NCBI RefSeq assembly: GCF_030157465.1
Contig: NZ_JAOAUU010000133.1
Location: forward strand, 1 to 38,108
DNA length: 38,108 bases
Direction of reading: 5' to 3'
From: Zoogloea sp.
GTDB taxonomy: Bacteria; Pseudomonadota; Gammaproteobacteria; Burkholderiales; Rhodocyclaceae
The translations under genes were made by a program, and so were the position numbers. The notes beneath the pieces are model-generated. The model was given only the letters and a program-made list of their open reading frames with translations, searched no databases and was not told where the DNA came from. Shown here one piece after another: positions 5,414-34,742 of the stretch. Positions within the stretch are counted from its first letter, which is position 1. Each line of letters starts with the position of its first letter.

Positions 5414-5491
5414 GGTGGAACTCCTCAAAATTCGTCGGCTAAGTCCGTCTGCCGGTGGGGCAGGCCGCGGCTTGCGGCCCGCCTGGCCTGA

Positions 5492-7077: not shown

Positions 7078-7094
7078 GCTTGTTTCTCCTTCAT

Positions 7095-7162
7095 GTAGGG
7101 GCGACTTCAGTCGCCCACGGAGGTTGATCAAGGTTCGGATGGGCGACTGAAGTCGCCCCTAC
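7095..7162. repeat. GTAG-headed REP-doublet-like element, copy A
   Basis: GTAG followed by GGGCGACTTCAGTCGCCC, a 28-base spacer, then the inverse ending in CTAC. Each arm is a 7-bp stem with a TTCA-type loop, and the two arms can also pair with one another. It fills the gmaS-mgsA gap. Confidence 0.85.
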
Positions 7163-14573: not shown

Positions 14574-14646
14574 GGCTGTTGTCCTTGTGCTCGGCCTCTG
14601 GAGGGCCATTGGTTCATCCGGGGGTGAGGCGGCGGATCGGGGCGAT

Positions 14647-14731
14647 GTAGGGGCGACTTCAGTCGCCCACGGACTCAAACAAACGATCTACCTTGATTTG
14701 GCCGGCTGAGGGCGACTGAAGTCGCCCCTAC
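14647..14731. repeat. GTAG-headed REP-doublet-like element, copy C
   Basis: GTAG plus GGGCGACTTCAGTCGCCC and its inverse ending in CTAC, here with the longer spacer of about 45 bases. It fills the gap between the GcvT-like gene and purU. Confidence 0.85.
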
Positions 14732-16372: not shown

Positions 16373-16729
16373 ATGGACATCTGCCCGATCCGCACTGAGG
16401 CCGACCACCGTGCGGCCCTGGCCGACATTTCCAGGCTGATGGAGGCCGACCCCGAGCCGGGCACCCCCGACGGTGATCGCCTCGATGTACTGGCGACGCT
16501 GGTGGAGGCCTACGAGGCCAGGCGCTATCCGGTGGCGCCCCCCGATCCGATTGAAGCCATCAAGTTCCGAATGGACCAGGAAGGCCTCACCGCCAAGGAT
16601 TTGACGCCCTACATCGGGCGGCTCAACCGGGTGTATGAGGTGCTGTCACGCCGGCGGCCCCTCACGCTGCCGATGATCCGACGCCTGCACTCCGGGCTGG
16701 GCATTGCGGCTGAGAGTCTGATCGCCTGA
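16373..16729 (+). CDS. higA: Antitoxin HigA (HTH-type)
   Basis: A 118-residue antitoxin with an acidic N-terminal half (ADISRLMEADPEPGTPDGDRLDVLATLVEAYEARRYP) and a C-terminal helix-turn-helix (IKFRMDQEGLTAKDLTPYIGRLNRVYEVLSRRRPLTLPMIRRLHSGLGI). It neutralises HigB and represses the operon through the palindrome at 16037-16057. It starts three bases after higB with no own promoter visible. The pair lies between the catabolic operon and the two-component genes and is the likely stabiliser of this accessory segment. Confidence 0.9.
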   Translation: MDICPIRTEADHRAALADISRLMEADPEPGTPDGDRLDVLATLVEAYEARRYPVAPPDPIEAIKFRMDQEGLTAKDLTPYIGRLNRVYEVLSRRRPLTLPMIRRLHSGLGIAAESLIA

Positions 16730-16739
16730 CGCTGGATGT

Positions 16740-16774
16740 AAAAAACCGCCCAACGGGGGCTCACCCGCCCCGTT
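16740..16774 (-). terminator. Possible minus-strand terminator overlapping the response-regulator stop
   Basis: On the minus strand AACGGGG (16774-16768) pairs with CCCCGTT (16758-16752), followed after GGGCGG by six T (complement of A16740-16745). The stop codon of the broken regulator (16761-16763) lies in the loop. It also separates this unit from the convergent higBA. The gap before the T run makes it imperfect. Confidence 0.35.
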
Positions 16775-17442
16775 CCTCTTCCCGCAGTTCCCGCAGCCAC
16801 ACGGCGGCTTCGAAGCGGTTGCGCAGGTTGAGCTTTTGCAGCACGTGCTTCACGTGCACCTTCACCGTGCTTTCGGCGATGCCCAGCGAGCGGGCGATGA
16901 TTTTGTTGGAGGCGCCCTTGGACACCAGTTCCAGGGTTTCCTGCTCCCGTGCGGTGAGGGAGGCCTAACCTTCGTCGATGCTTTCCCGGGTGGGGGGGCT
17001 GGGGCTTGGCCAGCAGGCCGCCTACCTCGGATGACAGCACGGTGCCGCCGGCGGCCACCTGGCGCAGCTTGAGGCAGAACTCGTCCGGCTCCATGTCCTT
17101 GAGCAGATAGCCGCTGGCCCCGGCCTTGAGGGCCTCCATCACGTCGAAGCTGGAATCGGACACGGTGAGCATCACCAGCCGGGTGGTCGAGCCGGCGCTT
17201 TGCAGCGCGCGGATGACCGAGATGCCGTCGAGCCCCTTCATGTGCAGGTCCACCAGGGCCACGTCGGGGCGGTGGGGCAGCACCGCCTCGATGCCCTCGG
17301 CGCCAGAGGCGGCCTCGGCCACCACTTGAATGTCGCCGTACATCGAAAGCAGCTGGCCGATGCCCTTGCGGAAGAGGGCGTGGTCATCCACCACCACGAG
17401 GCGGATCGACGCCCCCTCGGCGCCCGGCGGGGCGCCCGTCAT
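16761..17442 (-). pseudogene. NarL/FixJ-family response regulator, frameshifted
   Basis: The receiver domain is intact: VVVDDHALFRKG with Asp19/20, phosphoacceptor Asp65 in VALVDLHMKG, Thr93, Lys115 in YLLKDMEPDE. After AKPQPP (about 16999) the frame leaves the family. In the next frame the LuxR-type DNA-binding domain continues perfectly, LTAREQETLELVSKG, NKIIARSLGIAESTVKVHVKHVLQKL, ending EERGG at 16761. Dropping one C from the C7 run (minus strand; G at 16992-16998) restores the frame, but then a TAG follows SIDEG, seven codons later. So two lesions are needed, or one slip nearer the TAG. As it stands the product loses its DNA-binding domain and runs to 16609. The kinase partner is 43 bases upstream. 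An assembly error is possible. Confidence 0.85.
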
Positions 17443-17485
17443 TGCGTGTTACATGGCGCGTGTTTCCTTGTTGGAGTCATCGGGT

Positions 17486-19033
17486 TCAGTGGCCCGCCGA
17501 GCGGGGCCGGAAGCGCATCTCGACGCAGGTGCCGGTGCCGCCCGCGCCTTCGTCCACATCCAGGCTGCCGCCCAGCTGGCGGGCCCGTTCACGCATGATC
17601 GACATGCCGTGGTGGCCCTCGCCGCCGCTGTCGGGCTGGATGCCGCGGCCGTCGTCCTCCACCAGCACCAGCACCTCCCCGTCCTCGTCCCGTTCCAGGC
17701 GGATCAGGGCGTGCTCGGCGCGGGCGTGGCGAACCACGTTGGTCAGCGCTTCGCGGGCGATCTGCAGCAGGTGGAATTCCTCGTTGACCGACAGGGGCAA
17801 GTCCCCCAGCCGGTAGTCCAGGCCGATCTCGGTGCCCGCCCGGGCCGACAGTTCGTCCACCACCTCGCGCAGGGCTTGCTGCAGCCCGCCGGGCGGCATG
17901 CTGGTGCGAAAGGCCGAGAGCAGTTCGCGCAGGTGGCGGTAGGCGCTGTCGAGGCCGGTCTTGATCTCGCCGGAGATGTCGAGCACGGCGCCGGCCGGGG
18001 CGCAGGCGGCGCAGCTGCGGCCGATCTCCAGCTGCAGGCGGGCGATCTGCAGCTTCATGTAGGACAAAGCCTGAGCCAGGGAGTCGTGGAGTTCGCCGGC
18101 GATGGCGCTACGTTCGTCCATCAGGGCCAGCCGGCGGCGGCGCTGGTTGCGCTGCAGGTTGCCCAGGGACAGGGCGAACAGGCCGGCCACCGCGTCCACC
18201 AGCCGGCGGTGGCGGCTCTCGAAGAGAAAGTCGCCGCGGGCCTCGACGATCAGCACGCCGTAGATGTTGTCTGAATCCCGCACCGGCACGGCCAGCTCGA
18301 CGATCTCCCCGTCCGGCCCGGCCACCGAGCGGCGCAGGCCGCCGCTGCGGGCCAGCTCGTCCACGTCGAACTCGTCGAGCAGGCGGGCCAGGCGCGGGGC
18401 GCCCAGCACGGCCGGCACGCCCAGTCCCTCGGCCACCGGGTCGAGCAGGGCGAGGGTGCAGCAGTGGGCTTGCAGGCAGTCCGCCATGTCCTCGAGCAGG
18501 GTCGTGAGCCAGGGGGCGCTGGCGCTGTTCTCGGCCAGGCTGGCACAGGCCCGGTAGATGAATTCCAGCGAGCGGGCGGCAAAGCGCTCCTGTTCCCGGG
18601 CCTGGCGGGACAGGCGCTCGCCGTCGGCCAGCCGCCCGGCCAGCTGGGCCGCCACCGAATCCAGGCTGCGCGCCAGGCGGTCGATCTCGTCGCTGCCCCC
18701 GGCCGGGGCCGCCACCGCACCAGCGGTGTGCGCGGCGACGCCGGCCAGCGCGAGATCGGTGCGCACTGCCAGCACCTTCCAGGCCGTGCGCAGGATCAGG
18801 CCGCAGCCCGCTACAAACAGTAAAACGAGCACCACCTGGATCAGCCCGACCCCGGCGAGGCGGGCCGCGGCGTCACCGTCGGGCCGGGCCAGGGCCAGGC
18901 TTTCCAGGCGCGCCGCCACGCCGGCGCTGACGAACAGGGCCGCGCTGAGGCTGGCGAGGCAGGCCAGCATCAGGCTCAGGCGGGACAGGAGGGGATAACG
19001 GTCGAGCACCGGAGAGGGCCGTTCAGGATGCAC
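17486..19033 (-). CDS. NarX-type sensor histidine kinase
   Basis: A 515-residue membrane kinase. Two transmembrane segments (about 19-42 and 61-82) flank a loop of only about 18 residues, too short for a NarX periplasmic nitrate domain. A HAMP-like linker, a GAF-like region (about 160-300, with CLQAHCCTLALL), the HisKA_3 box DERSAIAGELHDSLAQALSY with His316, the N box REALTNVVRHA and the G box VEDDGRGIQ / GHHGMSIMRERARQLGG follow. It would phosphorylate the neighbouring response regulator, which is broken. The start is a GTG at 19033 without a clear ribosome site; other starts are possible. Cysteines at 191-192 and in RSCAAC could be redox or metal sensing (speculative). Confidence 0.85.
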   Translation of the reverse strand: MHPERPSPVLDRYPLLSRLSLMLACLASLSAALFVSAGVAARLESLALARPDGDAAARLAGVGLIQVVLVLLFVAGCGLILRTAWKVLAVRTDLALAGVAAHTAGAVAAPAGGSDEIDRLARSLDSVAAQLAGRLADGERLSRQAREQERFAARSLEFIYRACASLAENSASAPWLTTLLEDMADCLQAHCCTLALLDPVAEGLGVPAVLGAPRLARLLDEFDVDELARSGGLRRSVAGPDGEIVELAVPVRDSDNIYGVLIVEARGDFLFESRHRRLVDAVAGLFALSLGNLQRNQRRRRLALMDERSAIAGELHDSLAQALSYMKLQIARLQLEIGRSCAACAPAGAVLDISGEIKTGLDSAYRHLRELLSAFRTSMPPGGLQQALREVVDELSARAGTEIGLDYRLGDLPLSVNEEFHLLQIAREALTNVVRHARAEHALIRLERDEDGEVLVLVEDDGRGIQPDSGGEGHHGMSIMRERARQLGGSLDVDEGAGGTGTCVEMRFRPRSAGH

Positions 19034-21800: not shown

Positions 21801-22979
21801 ATGATTCAAATCATTCAGATTGACGGATTCAAGTCGGTCGTTTCACAGACGCTGGATCTGGGGCGAGTGAATTGTTTTATCGGCGCCAATGGCGTAGGGA
21901 AGAGCAATCTTCTCGAAGCTATTGGTGTGTTAAGTGCTGCAGCTAGTGGCAAGGTAGATGATGAGTCCCTGCTTCGTCGTGGAGTGCGGCCGGGAATGCC
22001 TCGGCTTTACAAGACATCGTTTGAGTCGGCCAGTGTTCCCGTGCATATCGGCTTGCGTGCTCAAAGCGACGATGGTGCCATTTATCGAGTTTCATTATTG
22101 AATCCACTGGAGAATCCAGAGCCTGCTTGGACGTTCAAAACGGAGCGGCTAACCTCCGGAGGAGACGAAATTGTTTCTGACGGAGTGCGCAATAAACGGA
22201 ATCTAACCCCGACTGCGGGATTGGCGGCACTGAAATTGGTGGAGGTTGATAGCATCAGTCCAGCGGCAAAGTTAATGAGCCGCCTGCAGAACTTTGCAAT
22301 TTACTCACCCAATACTCCGACTCTGCGTGCGATGGTGAGCGACCCCCAGTCGCGTAACCCGCTAGGGTTGTCCGGCGGGCGGTTGGCGGAGGGCTTTGCC
22401 GAGTTCCGCAAGACGATCCTTGATCAGGACGAGGAGTTGTTGGATAGCGTGTTTGAGTTAGTGGACTGGGTCGCTGATATTCAAACCACCTCATCGGCTG
22501 GGTCTCTGTTGTCGCCATCGGTTGCGCGCACCAAAGATGTATTGAAGTTCACTGATCGTTTCATGCGCAAGAGCCGAAATACTCTTACGGCTTATGATGC
22601 TAGCGAAGGTGCTTTATATGTGCTTTTCTGCGCGATTTTATGCCTGTCGCCACACGCACCGAAAATGTTCGCTATCGATAATCTGGATCAGGCCTTGAAC
22701 CCGAGATTGGTGGGGCGACTGACCGCCAAGCTCACTTCGTGGTTGGCACTCGATTCCGAAAAAAGGCAACTGCTCTTTACTGCACACAATCCGGCGGTTC
22801 TGGACGGGTTGGATTTGAGCAATCCTGAAGTAAGGCTGTTTGCAGTCGAGAGAAATAGTGAAGGACACACAGTTGTTCGTCGCATTAGTCTCAGCCCTGA
22901 ATTATTGGAGATGCAAGCCACTTATCCCTTGTCCCGTTTGTGGCTGATGGGAAATTTGGGAGCCATGCCGAATGTCTGA
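21801..22979 (+). CDS. SMC/AAA-type ATPase of a putative two-gene defence module
   Basis: A 392-residue ATPase of the AAA_15/AAA_21 (OLD/SMC-like) class. Walker A is GANGVGKS (28-35) after the typical start IIQIDGFKSVVSQTLDLGRVNCFIG. The Walker B-like site MFAIDNLDQALNPRL has Asn in place of the usual catalytic Glu, and the C-terminal FTAHNPAVLDGLDL is the H-loop region. Such ATPases pair with TOPRIM nucleases in OLD, Gabija, PARIS and AbiL systems, where the ATPase senses phage factors. Its stop overlaps the start of the TOPRIM-like gene by 8 bases, so they are coupled. The ATG at 21801 follows GGGAGCACATC. The DNA looks clearly less GC-rich than its neighbours, indicating transfer. Confidence 0.85.
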   Translation: MIQIIQIDGFKSVVSQTLDLGRVNCFIGANGVGKSNLLEAIGVLSAAASGKVDDESLLRRGVRPGMPRLYKTSFESASVPVHIGLRAQSDDGAIYRVSLLNPLENPEPAWTFKTERLTSGGDEIVSDGVRNKRNLTPTAGLAALKLVEVDSISPAAKLMSRLQNFAIYSPNTPTLRAMVSDPQSRNPLGLSGGRLAEGFAEFRKTILDQDEELLDSVFELVDWVADIQTTSSAGSLLSPSVARTKDVLKFTDRFMRKSRNTLTAYDASEGALYVLFCAILCLSPHAPKMFAIDNLDQALNPRLVGRLTAKLTSWLALDSEKRQLLFTAHNPAVLDGLDLSNPEVRLFAVERNSEGHTVVRRISLSPELLEMQATYPLSRLWLMGNLGAMPNV

Positions 22980-23697
22980 TCCCCGGATAGCCTTAATTGC
23001 GGAGGGTCCCACGGATTTCATCGTTATCGAAGCAGCCCTCAAGGCGATTTTGCAGCGCTCGTTTGTGCTCACTCAATTGCAGCCAGAGCCCACTCGCCCG
23101 GACATGGGCGGCGGTTGGGGAGGGGTATTCAAGTGGTGTCGGGAGTTCCGCCTGCGTGCGGCCACCAGCATTGAAGCAGACCCCACGCTGTCACAATTTG
23201 ATTTGGTGATATTGCATCTGGATGCGGATGTTGCAGGGAAACGTTACGCCCACTGTGGTCCAGCCGTGGAGCAGGCAGCTGCCGATCTGCAAGCTTTGCC
23301 GGGTGAGCAACCTTGTCCCCCTCCTGGTAACACAGTGGCCGCTTTGGAAACCGTGCTGCTGAGTTGGCTCGGTCTTGCGGCAGTTGGGCCAAAGAGCTTG
23401 TTTTGCATTCCCTCGAAAGCTAGTGATGCTTGGATGGCCGCCGCAGTCCTGCCTGCCGGACATGCTTTGCTGGCAGGGTTGGAATGCAATCTCCAGCTTG
23501 AGACGGCTCTATCTCAACTGCCCAAGGGGCAAAAACTCAGGAAATCCGTTCAAGACTACCGCTTACATGCCGGGTCTATTTCAAATAAATGGCAACAGGT
23601 GAAAAGCCATTGCACACAGGCTGGTGTGCTAGAACAGCGAGTACAACTCGTTGCACGGGCGTTTCCTGTACGAGCACCTCAGTCCTCTGCAATTTAG
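22972..23697 (+). CDS. TOPRIM-like protein, putative defence nuclease/effector
   Basis: A 241-residue protein. The N-terminus IALIAEGPTDFIVIEAAL carries the TOPRIM motif-1 Glu, and FDLVILHLDADVAG (about 77-90) the DxD-type motif, together the acidic metal site of TOPRIM folds (OLD nucleases, AriB of PARIS, AbiLii, DUF4276 proteins). The middle (NTVAALETVLLSWLG, FCIPSKASDAWMAAAVL) and the C-terminus are not recognised. It overlaps the ATPase gene by 8 bases. In related systems such a protein cleaves nucleic acid or host tRNA when the ATPase is triggered; here this is inference. I cannot assign it to one named system by eye. No T-rich terminator follows, only a 7-bp stem at 23716-23735. Confidence 0.75.
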   Translation: MSDPRIALIAEGPTDFIVIEAALKAILQRSFVLTQLQPEPTRPDMGGGWGGVFKWCREFRLRAATSIEADPTLSQFDLVILHLDADVAGKRYAHCGPAVEQAAADLQALPGEQPCPPPGNTVAALETVLLSWLGLAAVGPKSLFCIPSKASDAWMAAAVLPAGHALLAGLECNLQLETALSQLPKGQKLRKSVQDYRLHAGSISNKWQQVKSHCTQAGVLEQRVQLVARAFPVRAPQSSAI

Positions 23698-23778: not shown

Positions 23779-25683
23779 CTAAGCCCTTACGCGTGCCTTC
23801 GTCGGGTCGTAGTGCGGAAACGCGACCACTGTCGCATCCAGTCGTTTGCGGTGGCCGTCGAGTTGGCCAACCTGCAGGGCCGTTTCCAGTGATGAATAGG
23901 CGACATCGACCCGCGCCAGGGCGATCTGGGTGCCGAGGACCGGTGAGCGGACGGTGCTGGTGATTTCGCCGACTTTGGCGCGGCCGAGGTAGATGCCGTC
24001 GCCGTGGCTTGCCGGTTCGTTGCTGGCGATGGCGAGGCCGACGAGTTTGCGGCGGGGGTGGGCTTTGCGTTCTTCGAGGGCGGCTTTGCCGATGAAGTCT
24101 TCGGGCTTGGAGAGGGCGACGGTGAAGCCGATGCCGGCTTCGAAGGGGTCGGTCTGGTCGCAGAATTCGTGGCCGGCAAAGGCCAGGCCGGCTTCGATGC
24201 GCAGCATGTCGAGGGCGTCGAAGCCGAGCGGCGCGATGCCAAACTGCCCGCCGGCTTGCATCACGGCGTTCCATACGGCCGGGCCGTCCTTGGGGGCGCA
24301 CCACAGTTCATAGCCGAGTTCGCCGGTGTAGCCGGTGCGCGACACGACCAGTGGAATGCCGGTGGGGCCGCCCAGGCGCGCGGCGGTGAAGCGGAACCAG
24401 CCGAGTTCGCTGATGCTTGGCTGAACCGGGGCGGTCCACACAATCTTGTTCAGCAGTTCGCGGCTCTTGGGGCCTTGCACGGCGAGGTTGTGCAGGGCGT
24501 CGGTGGTGTCGCGGATGTGTACGTCGAAGTTGCCGGCGGCGGCTTGTTCCTTGAGCCACAGGCCGGTGGTGTCTTCGCCGCAGACGAAGCGGAACACGTC
24601 GCGGCTCATGCGGAAGACGGTGCCGTCGTCCATCATGCCGCCGTGGGCGTGGCATACGGCGGTGTAGACGATTTGCCCGACGGCGAGTTTGCGCAGGTCG
24701 CGGGTTTGCACCTTTTGCAGCAGGGCTTCGGCGTCGGGGCCGGATACATCGAATTTGCGCAGGGCCGACAGGTCCATGAGCGCCACTTTCTCGCGGCAGG
24801 CCCAGTATTCGGCAAGCGTGCCGTGGCCGACGAAGCTCTTTGGCAGCCAGAAGCCTTTGTAGTCGATGAAGTCGCGGGTGAGGGTTTCGGTGACCGGGGC
24901 GAAGGCGGTCGGGCGGGTCAGGCGGGCAGGGGAGTCGGGCGTCATGCGGTGGGCCATCGCGCGGGGGAAGGAATGGGCGGCGTCATAGATGCGCGCCTCG
25001 ATGTCGGTGGGTTGCCAGGCGTTGGCGGGGTCGATGTCGTCGGCGCAGGACGATACCGCCACCACCAGATCCTTCATGGCGCGCAGCAGCACGTAGTCGC
25101 CGGGCTTCGACCAGGGTTCGGCAAAGCCGAGGCTGCCGCAGGGCTGGATGAAGGTGTTGTAGAAGAAGTTGATGGCCGGCCAGCCGGCCCGCGGGCGGAT
25201 GCCGAGGGGCGCCAGCGCGGCGTTGAAGTTGTCGCTGCAGTTGGCGTGGCCGGGAAAGCCGGCGTCTTCGTAGTACTTGGCGGTGCAGGCGAGGGCAAAG
25301 GCGTCGTGGCGGCCGACGGTGTCCTGCACGGTTTCGAGCAGCGGTTGCATGCGCGCGTCGAAGTACTTGGCGTGCAGGCCCGGTTGGGGGTAGGCGGCGC
25401 CGGCGAGGGTGCGCGTTACGGTGGGGTCGAGGCCCCATTCCTCGCCAGTGGCCAGCGCCGCGGCGTCGAAGGCCAGCAGGTCGGAACACTGGCGGCCATC
25501 CACGTCGATGACCTGCAAAAACTGGCCGGCCTTGAGGGTGAAGGCGCGCGCGCTGGCCGCGGTGATGCGGATTACCACCAGCGCTTCGGGAAAAGCCTGG
25601 GCCGCAGGCGGCGGTGCTTCGGCGGCGAGCAGGAAGGGGTCGTCCTCCGGCTCGGTGAGGCACGGGGGGGCGATGTCGTTCAT
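23779..25683 (-). CDS. tdm: Trimethylamine N-oxide demethylase-like DUF1989-GcvT fusion
   Basis: A 634-residue fusion. Residues about 30-235 form a DUF1989 (urea-carboxylase-associated) domain with the three metal-type cysteines Cys66 (DGRQCSD), Cys149 (HANCSDN) and Cys213 (SSCADD). Residues about 275-634 are a GcvT-like H4F domain (LMDLSALRKFDVSGPDAE, MMDDGTVFRM, GYTGELGYELWC, FVGHGT). This matches Tdm of Methylocella, which cleaves TMAO to dimethylamine and formaldehyde and passes the C1 to H4F. The start at 25683 overlaps the flavin-reductase stop (ATGA) and has AGGAGG 7 bases upstream; the open frame continues to 25896 without meaning. It is the last gene of the right block. Related fusions may act on other methylated amines. 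Confidence 0.8.
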   Translation of the reverse strand: MNDIAPPCLTEPEDDPFLLAAEAPPPAAQAFPEALVVIRITAASARAFTLKAGQFLQVIDVDGRQCSDLLAFDAAALATGEEWGLDPTVTRTLAGAAYPQPGLHAKYFDARMQPLLETVQDTVGRHDAFALACTAKYYEDAGFPGHANCSDNFNAALAPLGIRPRAGWPAINFFYNTFIQPCGSLGFAEPWSKPGDYVLLRAMKDLVVAVSSCADDIDPANAWQPTDIEARIYDAAHSFPRAMAHRMTPDSPARLTRPTAFAPVTETLTRDFIDYKGFWLPKSFVGHGTLAEYWACREKVALMDLSALRKFDVSGPDAEALLQKVQTRDLRKLAVGQIVYTAVCHAHGGMMDDGTVFRMSRDVFRFVCGEDTTGLWLKEQAAAGNFDVHIRDTTDALHNLAVQGPKSRELLNKIVWTAPVQPSISELGWFRFTAARLGGPTGIPLVVSRTGYTGELGYELWCAPKDGPAVWNAVMQAGGQFGIAPLGFDALDMLRIEAGLAFAGHEFCDQTDPFEAGIGFTVALSKPEDFIGKAALEERKAHPRRKLVGLAIASNEPASHGDGIYLGRAKVGEITSTVRSPVLGTQIALARVDVAYSSLETALQVGQLDGHRKRLDATVVAFPHYDPTKARVRA

Positions 25684-26216
25684 GTGCAGACCTCCTGCTC
25701 CGCCAGCCGGCGGTAGCCGCCGGCGCTGAAGACCAGCGGGCTGCCGTCGCGAAAGCGCAGCTGCTTCACTTCGGCCACGAAGATGGTATGGTCGCCGCCG
25801 GGGTATTGGGCGTAGGGCCGGCATTCGAAGGTGGCGAGGGTGCCGTCGAGCAGCGGGGCGCCGTGCTCGCCGGCGCCGTAGGCGAGGTCGGCCCATTTGT
25901 CGGCGCCGCCCCGCGCGAAGCGGTTGGAGAGGTCTTCCTGCGCCTCCCCCAGCACGTGGATGGCCAGCGGGCCGCCGGCGGCGAAGGCTTCGCAGCAGGC
26001 CATGTTGCGGGCCAGGCTGAACAGCACCAGCGGCGGGTCGAGGGATACCGAGTTGAAGGAGCTGACGGTGGCGCCCACGGGCTGGCCGTCCGCGTCCCAG
26101 GTGGTGACGATGGTGACGCCGGTGGGAAAGAGGCCGAGGACCCGGCGGAACAGGCGCCCGTCAAAGGGCGCACGGTGGGCAGCCACGGGCACGGAGGGGC
26201 TGTCGAGGGTTTGCAT
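25680..26216 (-). CDS. Flavin reductase domain protein (two-component monooxygenase partner)
   Basis: A 178-residue flavin_Reduct/HpaC-like protein (LFRRVLGLFPTGVTIVTTWDADGQPVGATVSSFNSVSLDPPLVLFSLARN, then FAVHVL-type core AIHVLGEAQEDLSNRFA, ending in CRPYAQYPGGDHTIFVAEV). These proteins reduce FMN or FAD with NAD(P)H and hand it to a partner oxygenase. The nearest flavin-using gene is the acyl-CoA-dehydrogenase-fold protein 60 bases upstream, so the two probably form a two-component enzyme. Its stop overlaps the tdm start, tying it to TMAO chemistry. The start ATG at 26216 has AAAGGAGA at a good distance. Confidence 0.85.
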   Translation of the reverse strand: MQTLDSPSVPVAAHRAPFDGRLFRRVLGLFPTGVTIVTTWDADGQPVGATVSSFNSVSLDPPLVLFSLARNMACCEAFAAGGPLAIHVLGEAQEDLSNRFARGGADKWADLAYGAGEHGAPLLDGTLATFECRPYAQYPGGDHTIFVAEVKQLRFRDGSPLVFSAGGYRRLAEQEVCT

Positions 26217-26276
26217 GGCTTCTCCTTTGAGCCGCTCGCGAGGCTGGCCGGGCGCCGGCCCCGCGGGGGGCGGTGG

Positions 26277-27659
26277 TCAGGCCTGGGCTTCGGCCAGCAG
26301 CGTGGTGGCGAAGGCGGCTTTTTCTTCCTTGCTCATCTTCTTGAGTTCGTTGCCGAGCACGCGCTGGTTGACCGACTGGTTCCAGTAGTCGAGCACCTCG
26401 AAGCCGAGCAGCGCGGCCTTGCCGACGAACTGGCGCAGCACTTCGTTGGTGGGCCCCATCACCCAGCCGGCCTTGCCGTCGCGCAGCAGGCGCTCGATGC
26501 CGAGGGCCGGCTTGTAGCCGGTGCCGCCGCAGGCGTGGAGCATCTTGTCCACCACGTGGGTGACGTTCTTGGAGGAGAAGAACTTGACCTGCCACAGCCA
26601 GTTGAGCAGCGCGGTGCGCGGCAGGTGGCCGATTTCGGCATGGGGTGCCCAGTCGCAGTTGTTGGTCTGGTCGTCCAGCGCCTTGGCGGCCAGGTACACG
26701 TAGCTGCGGCTGGCGTTGGTGTCGATCAGGCACTCGCCGACGTAGTCCTGGATGGTCGGGTAGTCGGCCACGCGCATGCCCACGTCGTTGTGCACCTTGC
26801 GGGTGGTGTGGTTCTTGGTGATGTCCATGGCGGCCAGGCTGATGCCGTTCCAGCACGCCGAGGAGCACACCAGGAAGAAGGGGTCGACCACTTCGTCGTT
26901 CGATTTGGCGCCGTCACCCACCGGGCCGACCAGGGCGTCGGGGGCAATCTCGACGCCATCCACCGAGATCGGGCCGGACTGGTTGCCGCGCATGCCGAGG
27001 CCATCCCAGTTGGCGGGGTCGGCCTTGATCTGGTCTTTGGTGACTAGGAAGCACGACAGGTCGGAGTAGTTGCCGCCGAAGTCGGGCGAGGTGGTCTGGA
27101 TGATGTACCAGTCGGCAAAGCCGCCGGAGGTGGTCCAGGAGGCTTTCTTGAAGACCTTCCAGCCGCCGTCGGTGCGCTCGGCGCGGGACGACATGGGATA
27201 CCAGAAGTGAGAGCCGGTCTCGGGGTCGGAGTAGGACAGGGTGCCGATCAGCACGTCCTGGTCGACGCGGCGCAGGATGTCCTTGAGGCGCTCGTTGTCG
27301 TGGTGGCGCAGCAGCGCGGCGGCGCAGGCGCCCAGGTGCATGGTGTAGCACATGGCGGTGGAGGGGCAGCCGTAGCGGGCGATGGTCTCGACGACCATGG
27401 CGGCGCACAGGTGGTTTTCACCGCGGCCACCGAGTTCCTTGGGGATGGTCAGGCTCATCAGGCCCATGGCGGCCAGGGCTTCGAAGTTCTTGCGGGGGTA
27501 GATGTACTTCTTGTCGCTCTCGATGGCGTTGGGGCGCAGGGTGGTTTCGCACAGGGCGATCAGGTCGGCCTGCAGGGCCTTCTGCGCGGGGGACAGCATC
27601 CAGTGGGGGCTCCATTCGGCGCCGATACCTGCGGGGGTGAGGTGGGTGAGTGCGTTCAT
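26277..27659 (-). CDS. Acyl-CoA-dehydrogenase-fold flavoprotein, candidate amine N-monooxygenase
   Basis: A 460-residue protein with the three ACAD regions: helical N-terminus (LMSLTIPKELGGRGENHLCAAMVVE), beta middle (IGTLSYSDPETGSHFWYP, KKASWTTSGGFADWYIIQTT) and helical C-terminus (MLHACGGTGYKPALGIERLLRDGKAGWVMGPTNEVLRQFVGK). At the position of the catalytic YEGT of short/medium-chain dehydrogenases it has MGPT (401-404), so the catalytic Glu is absent. That, and the adjacent flavin reductase, point to group D flavin monooxygenases (DszC, isobutylamine N-hydroxylase) rather than beta-oxidation. Placed between the DMA monooxygenase genes and tdm, it may N-oxygenate trimethylamine or another methylated amine. 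Ribosome site AAGGAAG precedes the ATG at 27659. Fold secure, substrate inferred. Confidence 0.8.
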   Translation of the reverse strand: MNALTHLTPAGIGAEWSPHWMLSPAQKALQADLIALCETTLRPNAIESDKKYIYPRKNFEALAAMGLMSLTIPKELGGRGENHLCAAMVVETIARYGCPSTAMCYTMHLGACAAALLRHHDNERLKDILRRVDQDVLIGTLSYSDPETGSHFWYPMSSRAERTDGGWKVFKKASWTTSGGFADWYIIQTTSPDFGGNYSDLSCFLVTKDQIKADPANWDGLGMRGNQSGPISVDGVEIAPDALVGPVGDGAKSNDEVVDPFFLVCSSACWNGISLAAMDITKNHTTRKVHNDVGMRVADYPTIQDYVGECLIDTNASRSYVYLAAKALDDQTNNCDWAPHAEIGHLPRTALLNWLWQVKFFSSKNVTHVVDKMLHACGGTGYKPALGIERLLRDGKAGWVMGPTNEVLRQFVGKAALLGFEVLDYWNQSVNQRVLGNELKKMSKEEKAAFATTLLAEAQA

Positions 27660-27831: not shown

Positions 27832-28908
27832 TCAGCGTGGCGCGAGGGTGGTGACACCGGCCTCGGTGCCGACCGGCAGTTCGGCGCCGTCGTCGTGTCT
27901 GGCCAGCCATTCGAGGGCGGCGGGCAGGTAGCGGCTGAGGCCTTTGTATTCGGCGAGCTGGGGCGGCAGGGTGGACAACACCCGGTTGAGGCGCTTGCCC
28001 CACTTGGGCACGCGGGCCAGGTCGTCGAGCGAGGCCAGGTAGCAGCGGATCGGGAAGAGGATTGCGTTGCTGCGCGGCAGGCGCCACAGGGTTTGCAGCT
28101 CGACGCGCAGGTGCACTTTCTGGCCGGCGTTGTCGGGGGTCACGCTGGCGCGGTCGGGGCCCCACTCGGGGAAGCTTTCGGGCGAGGTGTCGAGGCGCGG
28201 GTTGATGCTCATGGTCCAGTTGAGGCGGCGCACCGGCTGGCCGAGGCGCAGCATCAGCAGGTACTTGAGGGCGCGCTCGAACACGCCGGCCTGATGCGCC
28301 AGGGGCACCGGGCCGTGCCATTCCATGAAGCTCATGCCCACGTCGAACTCCAGCGACCAGTCGGCCTGGGCGGTGACCATGCCAGCGTCCATGTACAGGT
28401 TGTCGTCGCGCTGGTCGCAGATGGCGAAGTCGCCCTGCGCTTGGCGGGTGATGTATTCGAAGGGCTCGCAGGGCAGGGTGTCGGCGTCGCCGAAGATGAA
28501 ACTCTGCTCGATGCCCAGCGGGCGGTTGATCCAGGTCCAGCGGCTGCCGAAGTCGTCGCCCTCCTTGGTGAGGGAGAACAGTTCCGGGTAGTCGGCCGAC
28601 AGGTTCTCCATCAGCAGCTCGAGGGTGTCCCACTGGGCCATCATCATGTGCGGCAGCACCTGGCAGCGGCCGGGGTCGCGCTCGAGGGTGATGGCCCGGT
28701 CGCGGCATTCGGCGATGTAGTGTTCATCCACGTCGAAGGGGCGCAGGAACACGTCGCTCGGGCCGCTGCGGGTGTGCGGCTCGATGTTGACGCTGTACAT
28801 GTAGCGGTCTTCCGGGAAGGGGAAGGGGAAGCGCAGGATGGCGGCGTCGCTGTTGCGGTAGCTGTAGTCGCCGCGGAAGGTTTCTTCGGGTTTGAAGGCG
28901 ATGGTCAT
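27832..28908 (-). CDS. Heme-dependent oxidative N-demethylase (DUF3445), dimethylamine monooxygenase catalytic subunit
   Basis: A 358-residue DUF3445 protein of the heme-dependent oxidative N-demethylase (HODM) family. Family-typical blocks are ILRFPFPFPEDRYMYSVNIEPH, VLPHMMMAQWDTLELLMENLSADYPELFSL, WTWINRPLGIEQSF, LHLRVELQTLWRLPRSNAILFPIRCYL. In Dmm systems this subunit carries heme and oxidises dimethylamine to methylamine and formaldehyde with electrons from the PDR-type reductase. Start ATG at 28908 follows AGGAGA. It lies 76 bases after the reductase with a REP-like element between. The substrate follows from the neighbouring dmmA-like and reductase genes; related HODMs may use other secondary amines. 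Confidence 0.88.
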   Translation of the reverse strand: MTIAFKPEETFRGDYSYRNSDAAILRFPFPFPEDRYMYSVNIEPHTRSGPSDVFLRPFDVDEHYIAECRDRAITLERDPGRCQVLPHMMMAQWDTLELLMENLSADYPELFSLTKEGDDFGSRWTWINRPLGIEQSFIFGDADTLPCEPFEYITRQAQGDFAICDQRDDNLYMDAGMVTAQADWSLEFDVGMSFMEWHGPVPLAHQAGVFERALKYLLMLRLGQPVRRLNWTMSINPRLDTSPESFPEWGPDRASVTPDNAGQKVHLRVELQTLWRLPRSNAILFPIRCYLASLDDLARVPKWGKRLNRVLSTLPPQLAEYKGLSRYLPAALEWLARHDDGAELPVGTEAGVTTLAPR

Positions 28909-28984: not shown

Positions 28985-29935
28985 TCACAAATCCAGTACC
29001 AATCTGCCGGCCTTCGCCCGCGATACGCAGGGCATGATCAGGCGGCCGGATGCGCGCTCGGCGGGGGACAGGACGTGGTCGCGGTGTTCGGCATCGCCTT
29101 CCAGCAGCGGGGTCACGCACACGCCGCAGGCGCCGCCGCGGCACAGGCACGGGGCGGCCACGCCGGCGCGTTCGATGGCTTCCAGCAGGCTTTCGTCCTG
29201 GCCCACTTCCACTTCGATGCCGGATCGGGCCAGGAAGGCACGGAAGGCCTCGCCACCGGACAGGGCCGAGCCGAAGTGCTCGCAATGCACGTGGCTGGCG
29301 GGCCAGCCGGCGGCCGCGGCGGCGCCGATCACCTCGTCGTTCATGGCGGCCGGGCCGCACACGTAGAGGTGCGTGCCGGCGGGCTGGGCGGCCAGCAGGG
29401 CCGGGATGTCGAGGCGGTGGCCGTCGGCGTCCCAGTGGAAGGCCACGCCGCTGCGGCCGGCGAGCCACGGGGCGAAGACGTCCTTCTCCGCTTCCCGGCA
29501 GCACACGTGCAGCGCGTGCTCGCCGCCGCTCATCGCAAAGTCGGCCAGGTAGGACAGGAAGGGCGTGATGCCGATGCCGCCGGCGATCATCAGGTGGCGC
29601 CGGGCGGTGCGCACCGGGGCGAACAGGTTGCCCGGCCAGCCCGCCGCGAGGGTGTCGCCGGCCTGGAGGTGCTCGTGGATGAAGGCCGAGCCGCCGCGGG
29701 AGGCGGGCACCAGGCGCACGATGATGTCCCAGGCATCCCGGGCGCCGGGCCGGCTGACCAGGGAGTAGGCGTTGCGCAAGCTGCGGCCCGCGCCGGCCAG
29801 CACCAGCTGGATGTGGGCACCGGCCGCGGCGGGGGGCAGCTTGCCGCCGTCCGCCGCCACCAGGCGCACATGGCGCAGGGTGGGGGCGATGTCGGTGACG
29901 GCCTCCACTTTCAGCTGCAGGGTTTCGCCGATCAT
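28985..29935 (-). CDS. PDR/VanB-family ferredoxin reductase of dimethylamine monooxygenase
   Basis: A 316-residue phthalate-dioxygenase-reductase type protein. An FMN-binding barrel with RNAYSLVS comes first, then an NAD(P) domain (MIAGGIGITPFLSYL, HVCCREAE), then a C-terminal plant-type [2Fe-2S] domain with the ligands in CLCRGGACGVC and a fourth Cys in LIMPCVSRA. It moves electrons from NAD(P)H through flavin and FeS to the heme demethylase. The start ATG at 29935 overlaps the dmmA stop (ATGA), so coupling is clear; the longer open frame to 30307 is not coding. VanB-like reductases also serve Rieske oxygenases, but none is in the window. Confidence 0.88.
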   Translation of the reverse strand: MIGETLQLKVEAVTDIAPTLRHVRLVAADGGKLPPAAAGAHIQLVLAGAGRSLRNAYSLVSRPGARDAWDIIVRLVPASRGGSAFIHEHLQAGDTLAAGWPGNLFAPVRTARRHLMIAGGIGITPFLSYLADFAMSGGEHALHVCCREAEKDVFAPWLAGRSGVAFHWDADGHRLDIPALLAAQPAGTHLYVCGPAAMNDEVIGAAAAAGWPASHVHCEHFGSALSGGEAFRAFLARSGIEVEVGQDESLLEAIERAGVAAPCLCRGGACGVCVTPLLEGDAEHRDHVLSPAERASGRLIMPCVSRAKAGRLVLDL

Positions 29936-30513
29936 GCGAAGACCTCCTCGATGGCCGGGATCTCGCCCGGTGCCTCGGCGTCCACCATCACGCCCATGAA
30001 GGCGCCCAGGCGGCGGGAGAAGTGGTCGCGCACCAGCAGGTGGCGGCCGCAGCCGCCGCAGGGCACGACGTTGGTGGTGACCCCGTCGGTGAAAGCGTGG
30101 CAGTGGGTGCACCACACCCGGCGGCGCAGGCTGCCGGCGTGGTGGAGCTGCACCTGGCCGGGGCCGAAGCCGATGAGCGCGGCGGCACCGGCCACCGACC
30201 ACAGAAAGGGCTCGGTGCCCTGCACGTAGAGCCGGTCGCCCATCCCGAACCCGCGGCTGGCGCAGGCGAAGGCGTCGAGTACCGCGTCCGGCCCGGCCAG
30301 CTGCCACACCTTGCCCAGGCCCGATGTGGCCGTCGGAGCGCCCACCAGCCAGGTCTGGAGTTGTCCGGCCACCGGGGCGAAGGTGCCGGCGAGGGCGTCC
30401 AGCCGGCCGTGCTGGAGGGTTTCGCCCTCGATCACCAGCAGGTGCCGGTTGCCGGCCAGGTCCGGCTCCAGGGCCCGGTATTCAGGGCGGCTCTTGATGT
30501 CGGAGTGCATCAT
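29932..30513 (-). CDS. dmmA: Dimethylamine monooxygenase subunit DmmA-like
   Basis: A 193-residue protein with no enzyme motif in its first 130 residues and a C-terminal zinc-ribbon or rubredoxin-like pair of Cys-x2-Cys knuckles (VWCTHCHAF ... VPCGGCGRHLLVRDHFSRRLGAFMGV). This composition fits the DmmA family, the small third component of the NADPH-dependent dimethylamine monooxygenase. Its exact role (electron transfer or assembly) is not clear to me. GAGGAG 7 bases upstream supports the ATG at 30513 (the next codon is also ATG); the open frame reaching 31452 is antisense to nothing real and lies within the permease. It starts 11 bases after the permease stop. Confidence 0.8.
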   Translation of the reverse strand: MMHSDIKSRPEYRALEPDLAGNRHLLVIEGETLQHGRLDALAGTFAPVAGQLQTWLVGAPTATSGLGKVWQLAGPDAVLDAFACASRGFGMGDRLYVQGTEPFLWSVAGAAALIGFGPGQVQLHHAGSLRRRVWCTHCHAFTDGVTTNVVPCGGCGRHLLVRDHFSRRLGAFMGVMVDAEAPGEIPAIEEVFA

Positions 30514-30524
30514 CGCGGGTCTCC

Positions 30525-32216
30525 TCAGATCACGGCCACGGCGTGGGCGACGGCGATCACCGCCGCGCCGCCGGCCAGGGCCAGCCAGGGCAGGATGCCG
30601 GCGCGGGTGCCGACGCCTGCTTCGTTGCCCAGGTGCATGTCTTCCTGCATCGCGGCGGGGAAGCGGCCCTTGTCGACGATGTAGTGGCGGTAGAAGAACA
30701 CCGGCAGGATCAGTGCCGCGGCGGCCAGGCCGGTGGCCAGGGTGCCGACGCCCCAGATGTCGGCGCCCATGCCCATCAGGCCCAGATTGACGAAGGCCAG
30801 CACGGTGCCGATGCCGATCAGCCAGGTCGGTGCCTTGTAGGGGCGCGGCCAGTGGGGGCGGTCGATGCGGTGGATCCAGGCGGCGTTGAGGTTGAGGAAG
30901 TTGAAGAGGATGTAGCAGACGTTGGAGATGGCCAGCACGAAGACGTAGTCGGACATCAGGAGCAGCAGCAGGTTGAAGCCCAGGTCGGTCCACATCGCCG
31001 CGGTGGGGGCGCCGTTGCCATTCACGTTGGAGAGGTACTTGGGCAGCCAGCCATCCACCGAGGCCTGGTAGAGGGTGCGCGAGGAGCCGGCCATCGAGGT
31101 CATGATCGACAGCACCAGGGCCAGCACCAGCATGGCCATCAGCACGTGTTCGATCAGCGCGCCGCCGCCCAGCATGTGGGCCATGGCCTGGGCTACGCCC
31201 ATGCCGCTGTAGATGTCGGGCGACAGGATGCCGTCGTACACCGCCGGGGTGACCACCGTGCCCGCCGCATCGAGGACGGCCGGGGTGACCATCTGCCCCA
31301 GGCCGAGGCTGCCCTGGAAGGCCAGCGGAACCACCGTGAATACGAAGATGCACAGGAGGCCCGAATACAGGATGGCCTTGAAGGTGTCGGTGCGCGGGTT
31401 GCGGAACTCGCGGGTGTAGCACACCGCCGTCTCGAAGCCGTAGGTGGACCACGCCGCCATGAACAGGCCGCCGGCGATCAGCGTGAAGCCGGCCATGTCC
31501 CAGCTGCCGTCGATCACCGCGCCGCCGGCATCCTTGGCCAGCGGGAAGAGCGGCGTCAGGTTGGCGGTGGGGATGTCACCGGAGAGCAGCGGCCACAGAC
31601 CGATCAGCATCAGCGGGGCGAGGGCGGCGATGCCCAGCACCATCTGCATGCGCGCCGCCTGCAGGATGCCGCGGTGCTGGATCGCGAAGGCCGCCAGCAG
31701 CACCGCGGCGCCGAGCACGAAGGTGGCGTTGATGCGCAGGGCCAGCCCGGCTTTCACGCCGCCAAGCTCGAGCAGGGTGATCTGCCAGGTGTTGATGGCC
31801 GCATCCGGCGCAAACAGGATGGACAGGATGTAGCCCGCCGCCAGCCCCGAGCCGATGGCCAGCACCGGCGACCAGGCCAGCCAGTTGCTCCACACCGACA
31901 GGGGCGCCAGCATCTTGCTGTAACGCACCCAGGCCACCGCGCCATACACCGACGCGCCGCCGGATTTGTGGGGGAACAACCCGGCGATCTCGGCGTACGA
32001 AAAGGACTGCAGGAAGCCGAAGGCGATCGAAATGATCCACACCGCCCACGATGGCTTGCCCACCGTGGCGGCAATGGAGCCGATGGAAAACAGCACCAGT
32101 GCCGGCACGCCACTGGCCACCCAGAAAGCGCCAGCCCAACCAATCTTGCGATGGAGCGTAGCGCTGGCGCCGCCGCTCCCGATGCCGCTCGCGGCATCCA
32201 CTGTCGTCGTGTTCAT
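30525..32216 (-). CDS. APC-superfamily permease, probable methylated-amine uptake
   Basis: A 563-residue polytopic inner-membrane protein with about 12-14 hydrophobic helices. It starts GWAGAFWVASGVPALVLFSIGSIAATVG (helix 1 with the APC GSI signature) and continues with FSYAEIAGLFPHKSGGASVYGAVAWV, GFETAVCYTREFRNPRTDTFKAILYSG and SMAGSSRTLYQASVDGWLPKYLSNVNGNGAPTAAM, all characteristic of amino-acid/polyamine permeases. As the first gene of the right block, it most likely imports the amine substrate (TMAO, dimethylamine or a related amine); that is inference. Start ATG at 32216 has GGGGAGA upstream; the frame reaching 32432 would overlap the divergent porin gene. It is divergent from that porin across 172 bases. 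Confidence 0.85.
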   Translation of the reverse strand: MNTTTVDAASGIGSGGASATLHRKIGWAGAFWVASGVPALVLFSIGSIAATVGKPSWAVWIISIAFGFLQSFSYAEIAGLFPHKSGGASVYGAVAWVRYSKMLAPLSVWSNWLAWSPVLAIGSGLAAGYILSILFAPDAAINTWQITLLELGGVKAGLALRINATFVLGAAVLLAAFAIQHRGILQAARMQMVLGIAALAPLMLIGLWPLLSGDIPTANLTPLFPLAKDAGGAVIDGSWDMAGFTLIAGGLFMAAWSTYGFETAVCYTREFRNPRTDTFKAILYSGLLCIFVFTVVPLAFQGSLGLGQMVTPAVLDAAGTVVTPAVYDGILSPDIYSGMGVAQAMAHMLGGGALIEHVLMAMLVLALVLSIMTSMAGSSRTLYQASVDGWLPKYLSNVNGNGAPTAAMWTDLGFNLLLLLMSDYVFVLAISNVCYILFNFLNLNAAWIHRIDRPHWPRPYKAPTWLIGIGTVLAFVNLGLMGMGADIWGVGTLATGLAAAALILPVFFYRHYIVDKGRFPAAMQEDMHLGNEAGVGTRAGILPWLALAGGAAVIAVAHAVAVI

Positions 32217-33344: not shown

Positions 33345-34103
33345 TCAGCCGGGGTTGCTGCGGCCGGTTTTCCGTTTCTTGTCACGCTCGCTGCGAACGA
33401 TGTTCTTTTGCACGGTTTTATTGCTGCTGTCCGCCTGGTCCAGCCATAAAAGGGCGTCCGCGTAGGCCATGAAGCGCCGGAGGTATTCCGGCGAGATGTC
33501 GCGCATCAATTTGAGTGACTGAAGCACCAGCAGGTGGGAATTGAGCGGGCCGGCGTTCTCGGGCGCTTGCGCAAGCGCGCGGGCCAGCTGCTGATCGACC
33601 TTGAGCCTGGACCAGGTGTTTCTGAAATACGCCAGGGCTGTGAGTTCTTCCCGGGGCTTGAGCGCTTCTCCGGCGCCATTTACGGGCACGTTTTGCGGCG
33701 AATGCTGCTGGATATGGGACAGCAGTTCGGCCAGGGGGTGCGCGCGATAGCGGTCTTGCAGGCTGGCGATGAATTGACGCAATTCGCGGAAATTGCCGGC
33801 GCGGTAAATGGCGTCCAGCCGGTCGGCCGCATCCGGAAATTGCGCCACGGTGCAGGCCAGGGTGTCGCCGGCCCGGGTTTGGGTTTGATCGAATCGTGCG
33901 GTGTATTCGTCAAGCGCCGTTGCCAGCCTGCCGTCCAGAACGCGTCTGGCGTCACCCTGCTCGGCGGCCGAGCGTCGGGCCAAGGCCTCGATGAAACGAA
34001 AGCGGACGGGATCGAGGTGGTCTGCGCCACGGGCGCGCAGGGCGTCGATCGTCACGCGGGGATCGACGGCTTCCAGGGCTCCGGGCGTCCCGGATTCACT
34101 CAT
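33345..34103 (-). CDS. DUF2894 protein, last gene of the Zorya-like operon
   Basis: A 252-residue soluble protein recognised as DUF2894: VTIDALRARGADHLDPVRFRFIEALARR near the start, a helical middle, ELTALAYFRNTWSRLKVDQQLARALAQAPENAGPLNSHLLVLQSLKLMRDISPEYLRRFMAYADALLWLDQA, and a basic tail KKRKTGRSNPG. The function is not established. It overlaps the OmpA-like gene by 8 bases, with ATG at 34103; the open frame to 34226 lies inside that gene. If the operon is a type III Zorya system, it would be the ZorG component (from memory of that classification). Confidence 0.8.
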   Translation of the reverse strand: MSESGTPGALEAVDPRVTIDALRARGADHLDPVRFRFIEALARRSAAEQGDARRVLDGRLATALDEYTARFDQTQTRAGDTLACTVAQFPDAADRLDAIYRAGNFRELRQFIASLQDRYRAHPLAELLSHIQQHSPQNVPVNGAGEALKPREELTALAYFRNTWSRLKVDQQLARALAQAPENAGPLNSHLLVLQSLKLMRDISPEYLRRFMAYADALLWLDQADSSNKTVQKNIVRSERDKKRKTGRSNPG

Positions 34104-34740
34104 GGGGGCCTGTGTCCGTCTTGGCCGATTGCGGGACCGGCGCCATTTCCACGCGCCGGTTCTGCGCTCGCCCCTTTTCGTCGGCATTGGAGGCCACCGG
34201 CTGCTCGGGGCCAAAGGCCGCGGCAAATATCGATGCAGCCGGAATGCCTTCGTCGATCATGGCCCGGGTGACCGTCAAGGCGCGCTGGGCTGAAAGCTCC
34301 CAGTTGTCGGCGAATTGCCGGTTGCTGTCCCGCATCGGCCTGTCGTCGGTAAAGCCGCTCACCATCAGCATTTCACCGCGGGCGCCCAGATAGGCGGCCA
34401 GTGGCGGCGCCAGGCTCTTGAGAATCTGCCGGCCCTCGGGCTGGAGCTGGTCGGAGTTGAGGGCAAACAGCACGCTGCCGCTGATGCCGATGCGCCCGTT
34501 GTTCAGCGTGACCCGGCCGGACGCGAGCGGAACCGCCAGGGCTTTTTCCAGGGCCAGGCGCCTGCGCTCTTCAATTTGCCGCTTGTGCACCTCGGCTTCC
34601 AGGCTGGTGGCCAGTTCGAGCTGAACCCCGAGCACGCCGACCAGGATCAGCACGAAGGCCCCCAGAAGGCCGGACATGAGATCGCCGAATACGGCCCATA
34701 CCGGCGTGCTGTGCTCGAGGCCGTCGTCGATGTTTTCCAT
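34096..34740 (-). CDS. OmpA/MotB-like peptidoglycan-binding membrane protein (ZorB-like)
   Basis: A 214-residue protein with one N-terminal transmembrane helix (FGDLMSGLLGAFVLILVGVLGV), which begins with Asp20 in the place of the ion-binding Asp of MotB/ExbD/ZorB. A coiled linker (LEAEVHKRQIEERRRLALEKAL) leads to a C-terminal OmpA_C domain (ISGSVLFALNSDQLQPEGRQIL, VSGFTDDRP, NWELSAQRALTVTRAMIDEGIP, RAQNRRVEM). It would be the stator's peptidoglycan anchor. The ATG at 34740 has GAGG 7 bases away; a GTG at 34746 overlapping the preceding stop is less likely. It sits between the DUF802 and DUF2894 genes. Confidence 0.85.
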   Translation of the reverse strand: MENIDDGLEHSTPVWAVFGDLMSGLLGAFVLILVGVLGVQLELATSLEAEVHKRQIEERRRLALEKALAVPLASGRVTLNNGRIGISGSVLFALNSDQLQPEGRQILKSLAPPLAAYLGARGEMLMVSGFTDDRPMRDSNRQFADNWELSAQRALTVTRAMIDEGIPAASIFAAAFGPEQPVASNADEKGRAQNRRVEMAPVPQSAKTDTGPHE

Positions 34741-34742
34741 CG

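Follow-up and report, generated by a model that had tools for sequence, protein, structure and literature searches.

In a 2026 paper, the oxidation of trimethylamine (TMA) to trimethylamine N-oxide (TMAO) is ascribed to the enzyme Tmm (PMC13390433). A survey of genomes and metagenomes from marine sources has used tmm as a marker alongside tdm, dmmDABC, and gmaS (PMC5520151). In a third paper, Tmm is described as a single polypeptide that works with NADPH and FAD, and group D enzymes with the acyl-CoA dehydrogenase (ACAD) fold are reported to oxidize dimethyl sulfide (DMS), together with a flavin reductase, to dimethyl sulfoxide (DMSO) and DMSO2 (PMC13352529). In the present study, we analyzed a stretch of 38,108 nucleotides from Zoogloea sp. 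(contig NZ_JAOAUU010000133.1; hereafter, the window), in which genes for an ACAD-fold protein and a flavin reductase are located directly upstream of tdm, the gene for TMAO demethylase. We propose, with a probability of about 0.75, that this pair is a two-component (group D-like) TMA N-monooxygenase and a non-orthologous replacement of Tmm.

Tmm, a class B flavin-containing monooxygenase (FMO; model NF058570), and the pair have in common the proposed reaction from TMA to TMAO, the dependence on flavin, the same place near tdm and, in some cyanobacteria, islands with shared neighbors. However, they are unrelated in fold and sequence, and Tmm is one polypeptide, whereas an ACAD-fold protein and a separate flavin reductase are found here. 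The ACAD fold and, putatively, the use of a separate flavin reductase are shared by the pair with DszC and with Dms1-3 of Acinetobacter baylyi, and a chemical parallel is that group D enzymes oxygenate DMS, a small soft nucleophile, to DMSO, although DMSO is also reported to form from DMS with the reductase alone (PMC13352529). The pair differs from these enzymes in its proposed amine substrate and its tdm-linked operon, and Dms1-3 are likened to it by description only. In a Foldseek search, the identity of the window's ACAD-fold protein was about 19% to DszC and about 24% to 5z8t, and the DszC model gave it 56 bits against a cut-off of 850. Isobutylamine N-hydroxylase and the ACAD-fold nitrososynthases are flavin enzymes of the ACAD fold that use reduced flavin to oxygenate the nitrogen of an amine; their substrates are primary amines or amino sugars, and we set them beside the pair by description only. 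Among the full-text literature matches listed, which cover subscription papers and preprints little, none was an ACAD-type TMA monooxygenase, and growth of the ACAD-bearing genera on TMA was found neither among the literature matches listed nor by a word search of one paper. To our knowledge, the formation of a tertiary-amine N-oxide would be a new reaction for ACAD-fold monooxygenases.

The gene for the ACAD-fold protein, the proposed oxygenase component for TMA to TMAO, is located at 26277-27659 on the minus strand (460 amino acid residues, with Pfam ACAD domains); it starts with ATG and has AGGA upstream. Sixty bases separate its stop from the start of the gene for a flavin reductase of the RutF/HpaC type (25680-26216, minus strand; 178 residues; PF01613), the proposed reductase component. 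The end of the reductase gene (25680) overlaps the start of tdm (25683) by the four bases ATGA, and tdm extends over 23779-25683 on the minus strand (634 residues; NF053776). Transcription proceeds from a TMAO permease gene through three dimethylamine-monooxygenase-type genes, the ACAD-fold gene, and the flavin reductase gene to tdm. An earlier reading of the window made from its letters alone (the sequence-only reading) had placed the two genes between the dimethylamine monooxygenase genes and tdm, with the ATGA overlap, and the open reading frames are as it described them. Twelve congeneric genomes contain a full-length ACAD copy at 92-96% identity and two more contain split or cut copies, and the named Zoogloea loci have the gene order of the window where their flanks allow; because copies and order recur in this way, the arrangement is not due to chance. 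The window's Tdm scored 1065 bits with NF053776, just below the cut-off of 1100, and lacks about the first 157 model positions (634 residues versus 763). A short Tdm was also found in the cyanobacterial genomes G462, G869, and G979, where it aligned from model positions 144-148 onward.

The route from TMAO through dimethylamine (DMA), monomethylamine (MMA), and gamma-glutamylmethylamide or N-methylglutamate (NMG) to glutamate and one-carbon (C1) folate appears complete in the window, with the roles of GmaS and the NMG genes assigned from family and context, and TMA to TMAO is the single pathway step without a known enzyme there. The sequence-only reading had noted the lack of a Tmm-type enzyme and had named a tmm gene elsewhere in the genome as evidence that would count against it. 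A tblastn search of the window with two Tmm proteins (E 1e-3) yielded no match, and NF058570 gave none in the genome itself (4.7 Mb, 174 contigs, listed as 100% complete) nor in any of 13 congeneric genomes, this one included. The general FMO model PF00743 gave one match of 41 positions in the genome (E 4.7e-4, 28.9 bits), flagged as above the family cut-off with frame neighbors. On TMAO import, the same reading was right only in part: TmoX, TmoW, and TmoV from genome G155 gave no match in the same tblastn search of the window, but the gene at 30525-32216 (minus strand) encodes a TMAO permease of the TmoP family, which matched NF053774 ('trimethylamine N-oxide permease') with 840 bits against a cut-off of 690. 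Because of this match, the window has a TMAO importer of another kind than TmoXVW.

Among 84,980 species genomes, a scan detected 106 relatives; the best 80 of them, which the locus counts below cover, have 65-96% identity to the window's ACAD-fold protein in the best segment. Proteobacterial hosts include Zoogloea, Azoarcus, Parazoarcus, Caballeronia, Xanthobacter, Aquabacter, Labrys, and Dongia. Twenty-five hosts are cyanobacteria (Leptolyngbya, Nodosilinea, and others), as counted from record titles, and further copies come from metagenome-assembled genomes (MAGs) labelled Latescibacterota, Gemmatimonadota, Acidobacteria, Armatimonadetes, and Obscuribacterales, labels that may be wrong. Linkage to tdm was observed directly. 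A Tdm match (at least 45% identity, some partial) was present in 62 of the 80 loci, where its median distance from the ACAD was 608 bp. Among the 44 loci flanked by 9 kb or more on each side, 41 had such a match (the misses were L110, L120, and L126). Flavin reductase homologues were found in 44 of the 80 loci, and in 30 of the 44 with long flanks. The order of the genes is variable (ACAD-reductase-tdm, reductase-ACAD, or ACAD-tdm-reductase), yet the set is kept together. At the threshold for presence in sampled genomes (E 1e-60), the ACAD was absent from all 45 alphaproteobacteria and all 289 cyanobacteria that lack Tdm (0/334 in total; the two cyanobacterial scans were taken as one draw). 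Carriage of the ACAD on plasmids was considered and rejected, as the best matches in 72,556 plasmid records were all below 60% identity, the top four at 30-32%.

Tdm was found in 15 of 369 genomes sampled from the window's class, in 35 of 385 from the class of Xanthobacter, and in 3 of 292 from the cyanobacterial phylum, and 50 Tdm genomes remained after removal of three centers. The ACAD alone was found in 7 of them and Tmm alone in 32, whereas 11 had neither and none had both (Fisher p 3.2e-4); the ACAD-only genomes were six alphaproteobacteria and G155. Ordinary ACADs (24-29% identity, E 1e-29 to 3e-22), present in 8 of the 14 gammaproteobacterial Tdm genomes, were scored as absence of the clade. 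Removal of the Tmm genomes G552 (a broken fragment) and G820 (two pieces) gave p 7.8e-4. In the opposite direction, the search for Tmm covered the genomes of 50 of the 80 ACAD loci, the other 30 being Zoogloea-type copies, near-copies, or on short contigs, and Tmm was absent in 45 of these 50. As the Fisher test treats genomes as independent though close relatives are not, we built a tree of Tdm as a control (87 rows, excluding G563 with its partial Tdm). The ACAD state changes 10 times on this tree and, in six supported independent pairs, Tmm changed opposite to the ACAD in 5.2 on average and in the same way in 0.0 on average.

PF11927, the domain of the Dmm-type subunit, occurred in 21 of 55 genomes with the ACAD (one as a fragment) and in 10 of 25 with Tmm. 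Because its frequency is similar with either enzyme, the ACAD acts like a substitute for Tmm rather than for Dmm; the idea that it substitutes for the DMA enzyme was ruled out in this way. The sequence-only reading had suggested a search for co-occurrence, and the outcome agrees with it: as predicted, the clade is linked with tdm in several phyla; it also excludes Tmm in the sampled Tdm genomes and does not track the Dmm subunit.

The replacement was also seen within islands of similar content. In the sampled Tdm-bearing cyanobacteria G869 and G979, Tmm is surrounded by genes for a PhyH-family protein, SBP3, a GmaS-like protein, Tdm, and a small unknown protein, and in loci L104, L106, and L125 the ACAD stands amid the same kinds of neighbors and an ammonium transporter, which also occurs in G979. 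None of these five islands contains both enzymes. Because the gene order differs among the five, they show shared content rather than strict synteny. In G155, a genome of 1.7 Mb from another family of the window's class, tdm is followed by genes for an OpuAC-type binding protein, an ATPase, a permease, the ACAD (72% identical to the window's), and the reductase (41%), and a search of this genome at E 1e-5 found nothing FMO-like. Exclusion combined with a swap inside islands that share their content typically marks non-orthologous gene displacement, and the rival explanations account for it less well.

The best-surviving alternative, which we still consider rather unlikely, is that the pair does serve this pathway as a two-component flavin monooxygenase, but acts on a methylated amine other than TMA, such as DMA, MMA, or a tertiary or quaternary amine that yields TMA. 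Five ACAD genomes that also have Tmm are in its favor, as are diverged ACAD copies at 45-62% identity, namely L153 and L154 (both in G812), L155 (G735), L152 (G447), and L157 (G763); no Tdm match was found in the stretch examined around each of these five copies. L153 adjoins an MttB-family-like gene and a GMC-type oxidoreductase-like gene, as judged by eye from the sequence, and because of these neighbors the wider family may act on several amines; the diverged copies may form a sister group with another amine substrate. However, the exclusion is with Tmm and not with the DMA gene, the window already offers candidate enzymes for the steps from DMA and MMA, and the usual neighbor of the ACAD is Tdm, which needs TMAO.

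That the protein is an acyl-CoA dehydrogenase, or another flavin dehydrogenase or oxidase whose part in the pathway is accessory or unrelated, is very improbable in our view. It does have the Pfam domains Acyl-CoA_dh_N (6e-17) and Acyl-CoA_dh_1 (5e-12), its AlphaFold model (pLDDT 81.3, pTM 0.83) has the ACAD fold, and true dehydrogenases are among its best matches in both structure and sequence. However, a glutamate is found at neither of the two positions that we take to hold the catalytic base in medium-chain acyl-CoA dehydrogenase (MCAD) and isovaleryl-CoA dehydrogenase in any of the 47 aligned rows of the clade. At the MCAD-type position, Gly402, present in 47/47 rows, aligns with the glutamate of the EGTNQ stretch in the ACADs 3pfd and 8i4p. 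The glutamate of the isovaleryl-type GLDxER falls, depending on the gap, at Phe261-Phe262 of the window protein (Phe261 in 47/47 rows; Phe262 in 46/47, with Val in one), whereas it is present in 7 of 9 non-clade ACADs from Tdm genomes. Moreover, HxDVG occupies, in 47/47 rows, the site where 8 of the 9 other ACADs show R-x-QFG, presumably the FAD motif of acyl-CoA dehydrogenases. As judged from these alignments, a protein that has lost both bases is not expected to dehydrogenate acyl-CoAs, and the loss of the FAD motif beside a neighboring reductase would fit a reduced flavin supplied from outside. The frequent flavin reductase homologue in the full-flank loci and the mutual exclusion with a monooxygenase also speak against a dehydrogenase.

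In total, 169 residues are invariant across the 47 rows, which come from several phyla. Aromatic residues among them (Tyr105, Trp153, Tyr154, Trp175, Tyr185, and Trp270) are candidates for a putative amine pocket above the flavin. Of the 169, 163-165 are retained in three additional copies close to tdm (L143-L145), while the five diverged copies L146-L149 and L154 retain 114-149 and have another residue at position 261; L140-L142 come from genomes already in the alignment and hence add no new evidence. The reductase matched Pfam Flavin_Reduct (PF01613) with E 4e-42, and its NCBIfam matches (HPA hydroxylase reductase, FerA, HsaB, and StyB) were every one below cut-off. Likewise, the curated models of DszC, HsaA, HPA hydroxylase, and SfnB gave the ACAD-fold protein 36-65 bits against cut-offs of 431-850, and none was passed.

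If the pair is a TMA N-monooxygenase, as we favor, the reductase would use NAD(P)H to produce reduced flavin, and the ACAD-fold subunit would bind the reduced flavin and react with O2 to form a C4a-(hydro)peroxyflavin, which would pass one oxygen to the nitrogen of TMA. The substrate, the product, the flavin, the mechanism, and the adjacent reductase as the partner are all what we infer from the gene's context and residues. The suggestion of a two-component oxygenase for TMA to TMAO, made in the sequence-only reading, draws its support from the tdm linkage, the exclusion of Tmm, and the loss of the base glutamates.

Several observations weigh against the proposed TMA N-monooxygenase. In the Tdm genome set, 11 of 50 have neither enzyme, and the sole ACAD copy of G763 is diverged and on a different contig from tdm; when G763 was moved, p became 1.2e-3, and 2.4e-3 when G552 and G820 were also removed. 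Tmm is present in 5 of the 50 genomes picked by ACAD, namely those of L076 and L084 (with Tmm situated between the ACAD gene and tdm), two Labrys genomes, and that of L126, which has no Tdm match within 10 kb of the ACAD. On the Tdm tree, the median p of the pair test was 0.0625, the direction being consistent and the pairs few, and 36 of the 87 rows were chosen for carrying the ACAD. No flavin reductase of the window's type was found near the ACAD in any of the 25 loci from cyanobacteria, of which 8 have full flanks, and a cyanobacterial ACAD would need a reductase encoded elsewhere. The nearest NCBIfam model to the ACAD-fold protein is FadE16/Rv1679 (NF049984), at 199.5 bits far below its cut-off of 600, and the absence of the base glutamate is not unique to the clade because two of the nine non-clade ACADs used as a yardstick (L044 and L045) lost it too. 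The fold does not discriminate, either: in Foldseek, where the target-normalized TM was 0.76-0.88 across the best 50 of 712 matches, dehydrogenases, the 'flavin-containing monooxygenase' 5z8t, and DszC were at similar rank among these 50. Thus, the structural comparison with DszC suggested in the sequence-only reading did find DszC among the matches but found dehydrogenases as well, and because both kinds are matched, fold alone decides nothing. Finally, because a TMAO permease is present in the window, Tdm could run on imported TMAO and need not depend on TMA oxidation. This permease, the 10 changes of the ACAD state, as for a mobile gene, and the Tdm genomes with neither enzyme would suit a passenger gene that is transferred horizontally along with tdm islands and takes no part in TMA oxidation, its hosts living on imported TMAO, but we give this explanation hardly any credence, as the avoidance of Tmm, the 169 residues invariant over several phyla, and the absence from the 334 Tdm-lacking genomes would all be unexpected.

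The ACAD clade probably represents a second, unrelated bacterial TMA monooxygenase, two-component and of the ACAD fold, which would supply Tdm with TMAO in diverse bacteria, including filamentous cyanobacteria, and would have been repeatedly exchanged with Tmm. If this is true, surveys based on Tmm undercount TMA oxidizers, and TMA oxidation is more widespread, reaching cyanobacteria, and evolved more than once. Amine N-oxide chemistry would then be placed on the ACAD fold, and the annotation of the clade's genes as acyl-CoA dehydrogenases would be corrected.

The other methylamine genes of the window are all on the minus strand. Those for the dimethylamine monooxygenase consist of an HODM alpha-like subunit at 27832-28908 (PF11927, E 1e-67), a ferredoxin/NAD reductase subunit at 28985-29935 (316 residues; Fer2 and NAD_binding_1), and a DmmA-family subunit at 29932-30513 (193 residues; NF041259, 97.5 bits against a cut-off of 60). 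A type III glutamine synthetase at 7183-8511 (TIGR03105, 643.5 bits against a cut-off of 469.6) is, from its context, likely a gamma-glutamylmethylamide synthetase (GmaS). Three genes resembling NMG synthase subunits, to which we assign this role tentatively, are located at 4052-5428, 5492-6181, and 6169-7131 (Glu_synthase, GXGXG, and GATase domains). A SoxA-like gene at 9139-12051 (TIGR01372, below cut-off) and a SoxB-like gene at 12331-13572 (TIGR01373, below cut-off) likely encode NMG dehydrogenase, and PurU, a formyltetrahydrofolate deformylase for C1 handling, is encoded at 13710-14678 (TIGR00655, 363 bits against a cut-off of 286). Beside the methylamine genes, a response regulator and a histidine kinase (16609-19033, minus strand) are possible regulators. 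Pairs of an 18-base palindrome, GGGCGACT(TC/GA)AGTCGCCC, and its near-variants, resembling repetitive extragenic palindromic elements, occur at gene edges of the amine operons (7099/7141, 14651/14710, 27735/27795, and 28925/28958). Amid the amine genes, two overlapping genes (21801-23697, plus strand) matched the candidate defense system PDC-M31A/B of PADLOC (628 and 334 bits). A ZorA3/ZorB3-like pair at 33345-37723 (minus strand; PADLOC 1011 and 375 bits) with DUF2894 and DUF3348 neighbors resembles a type III Zorya locus.

Some further features were seen in the ACAD loci of other genomes. Between the ACAD and reductase genes of G155, a stretch of 33 residues (L049:6699-6797, minus strand) is 58% identical to the C-terminus of Tdm and is perhaps the remnant of a second tdm. 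The cyanobacterial islands (L104, L106, L125, and others) contain the ACAD, Tdm, GmaS-like synthetases, an ammonium transporter, and a substrate-binding protein, and some include a copper amine oxidase or a MOSC protein; judging from these genes, they apparently serve the use of methylated amines as a nitrogen source. A small protein (162-175 residues) follows the short Tdm in cyanobacteria and in one Armatimonadetes MAG. It gave no Pfam match in the five searched, and the idea that it is the missing N-terminal domain of Tdm was rejected, as no significant BLAST, HMM, or hhalign match was obtained. Its gene is located at L125:15262-15768, L122:13745-14248, L106:14198-14713, L113:10952-11479, L116:7505-7993, and L124:14336-14857, and it is also found in L196 and L197.

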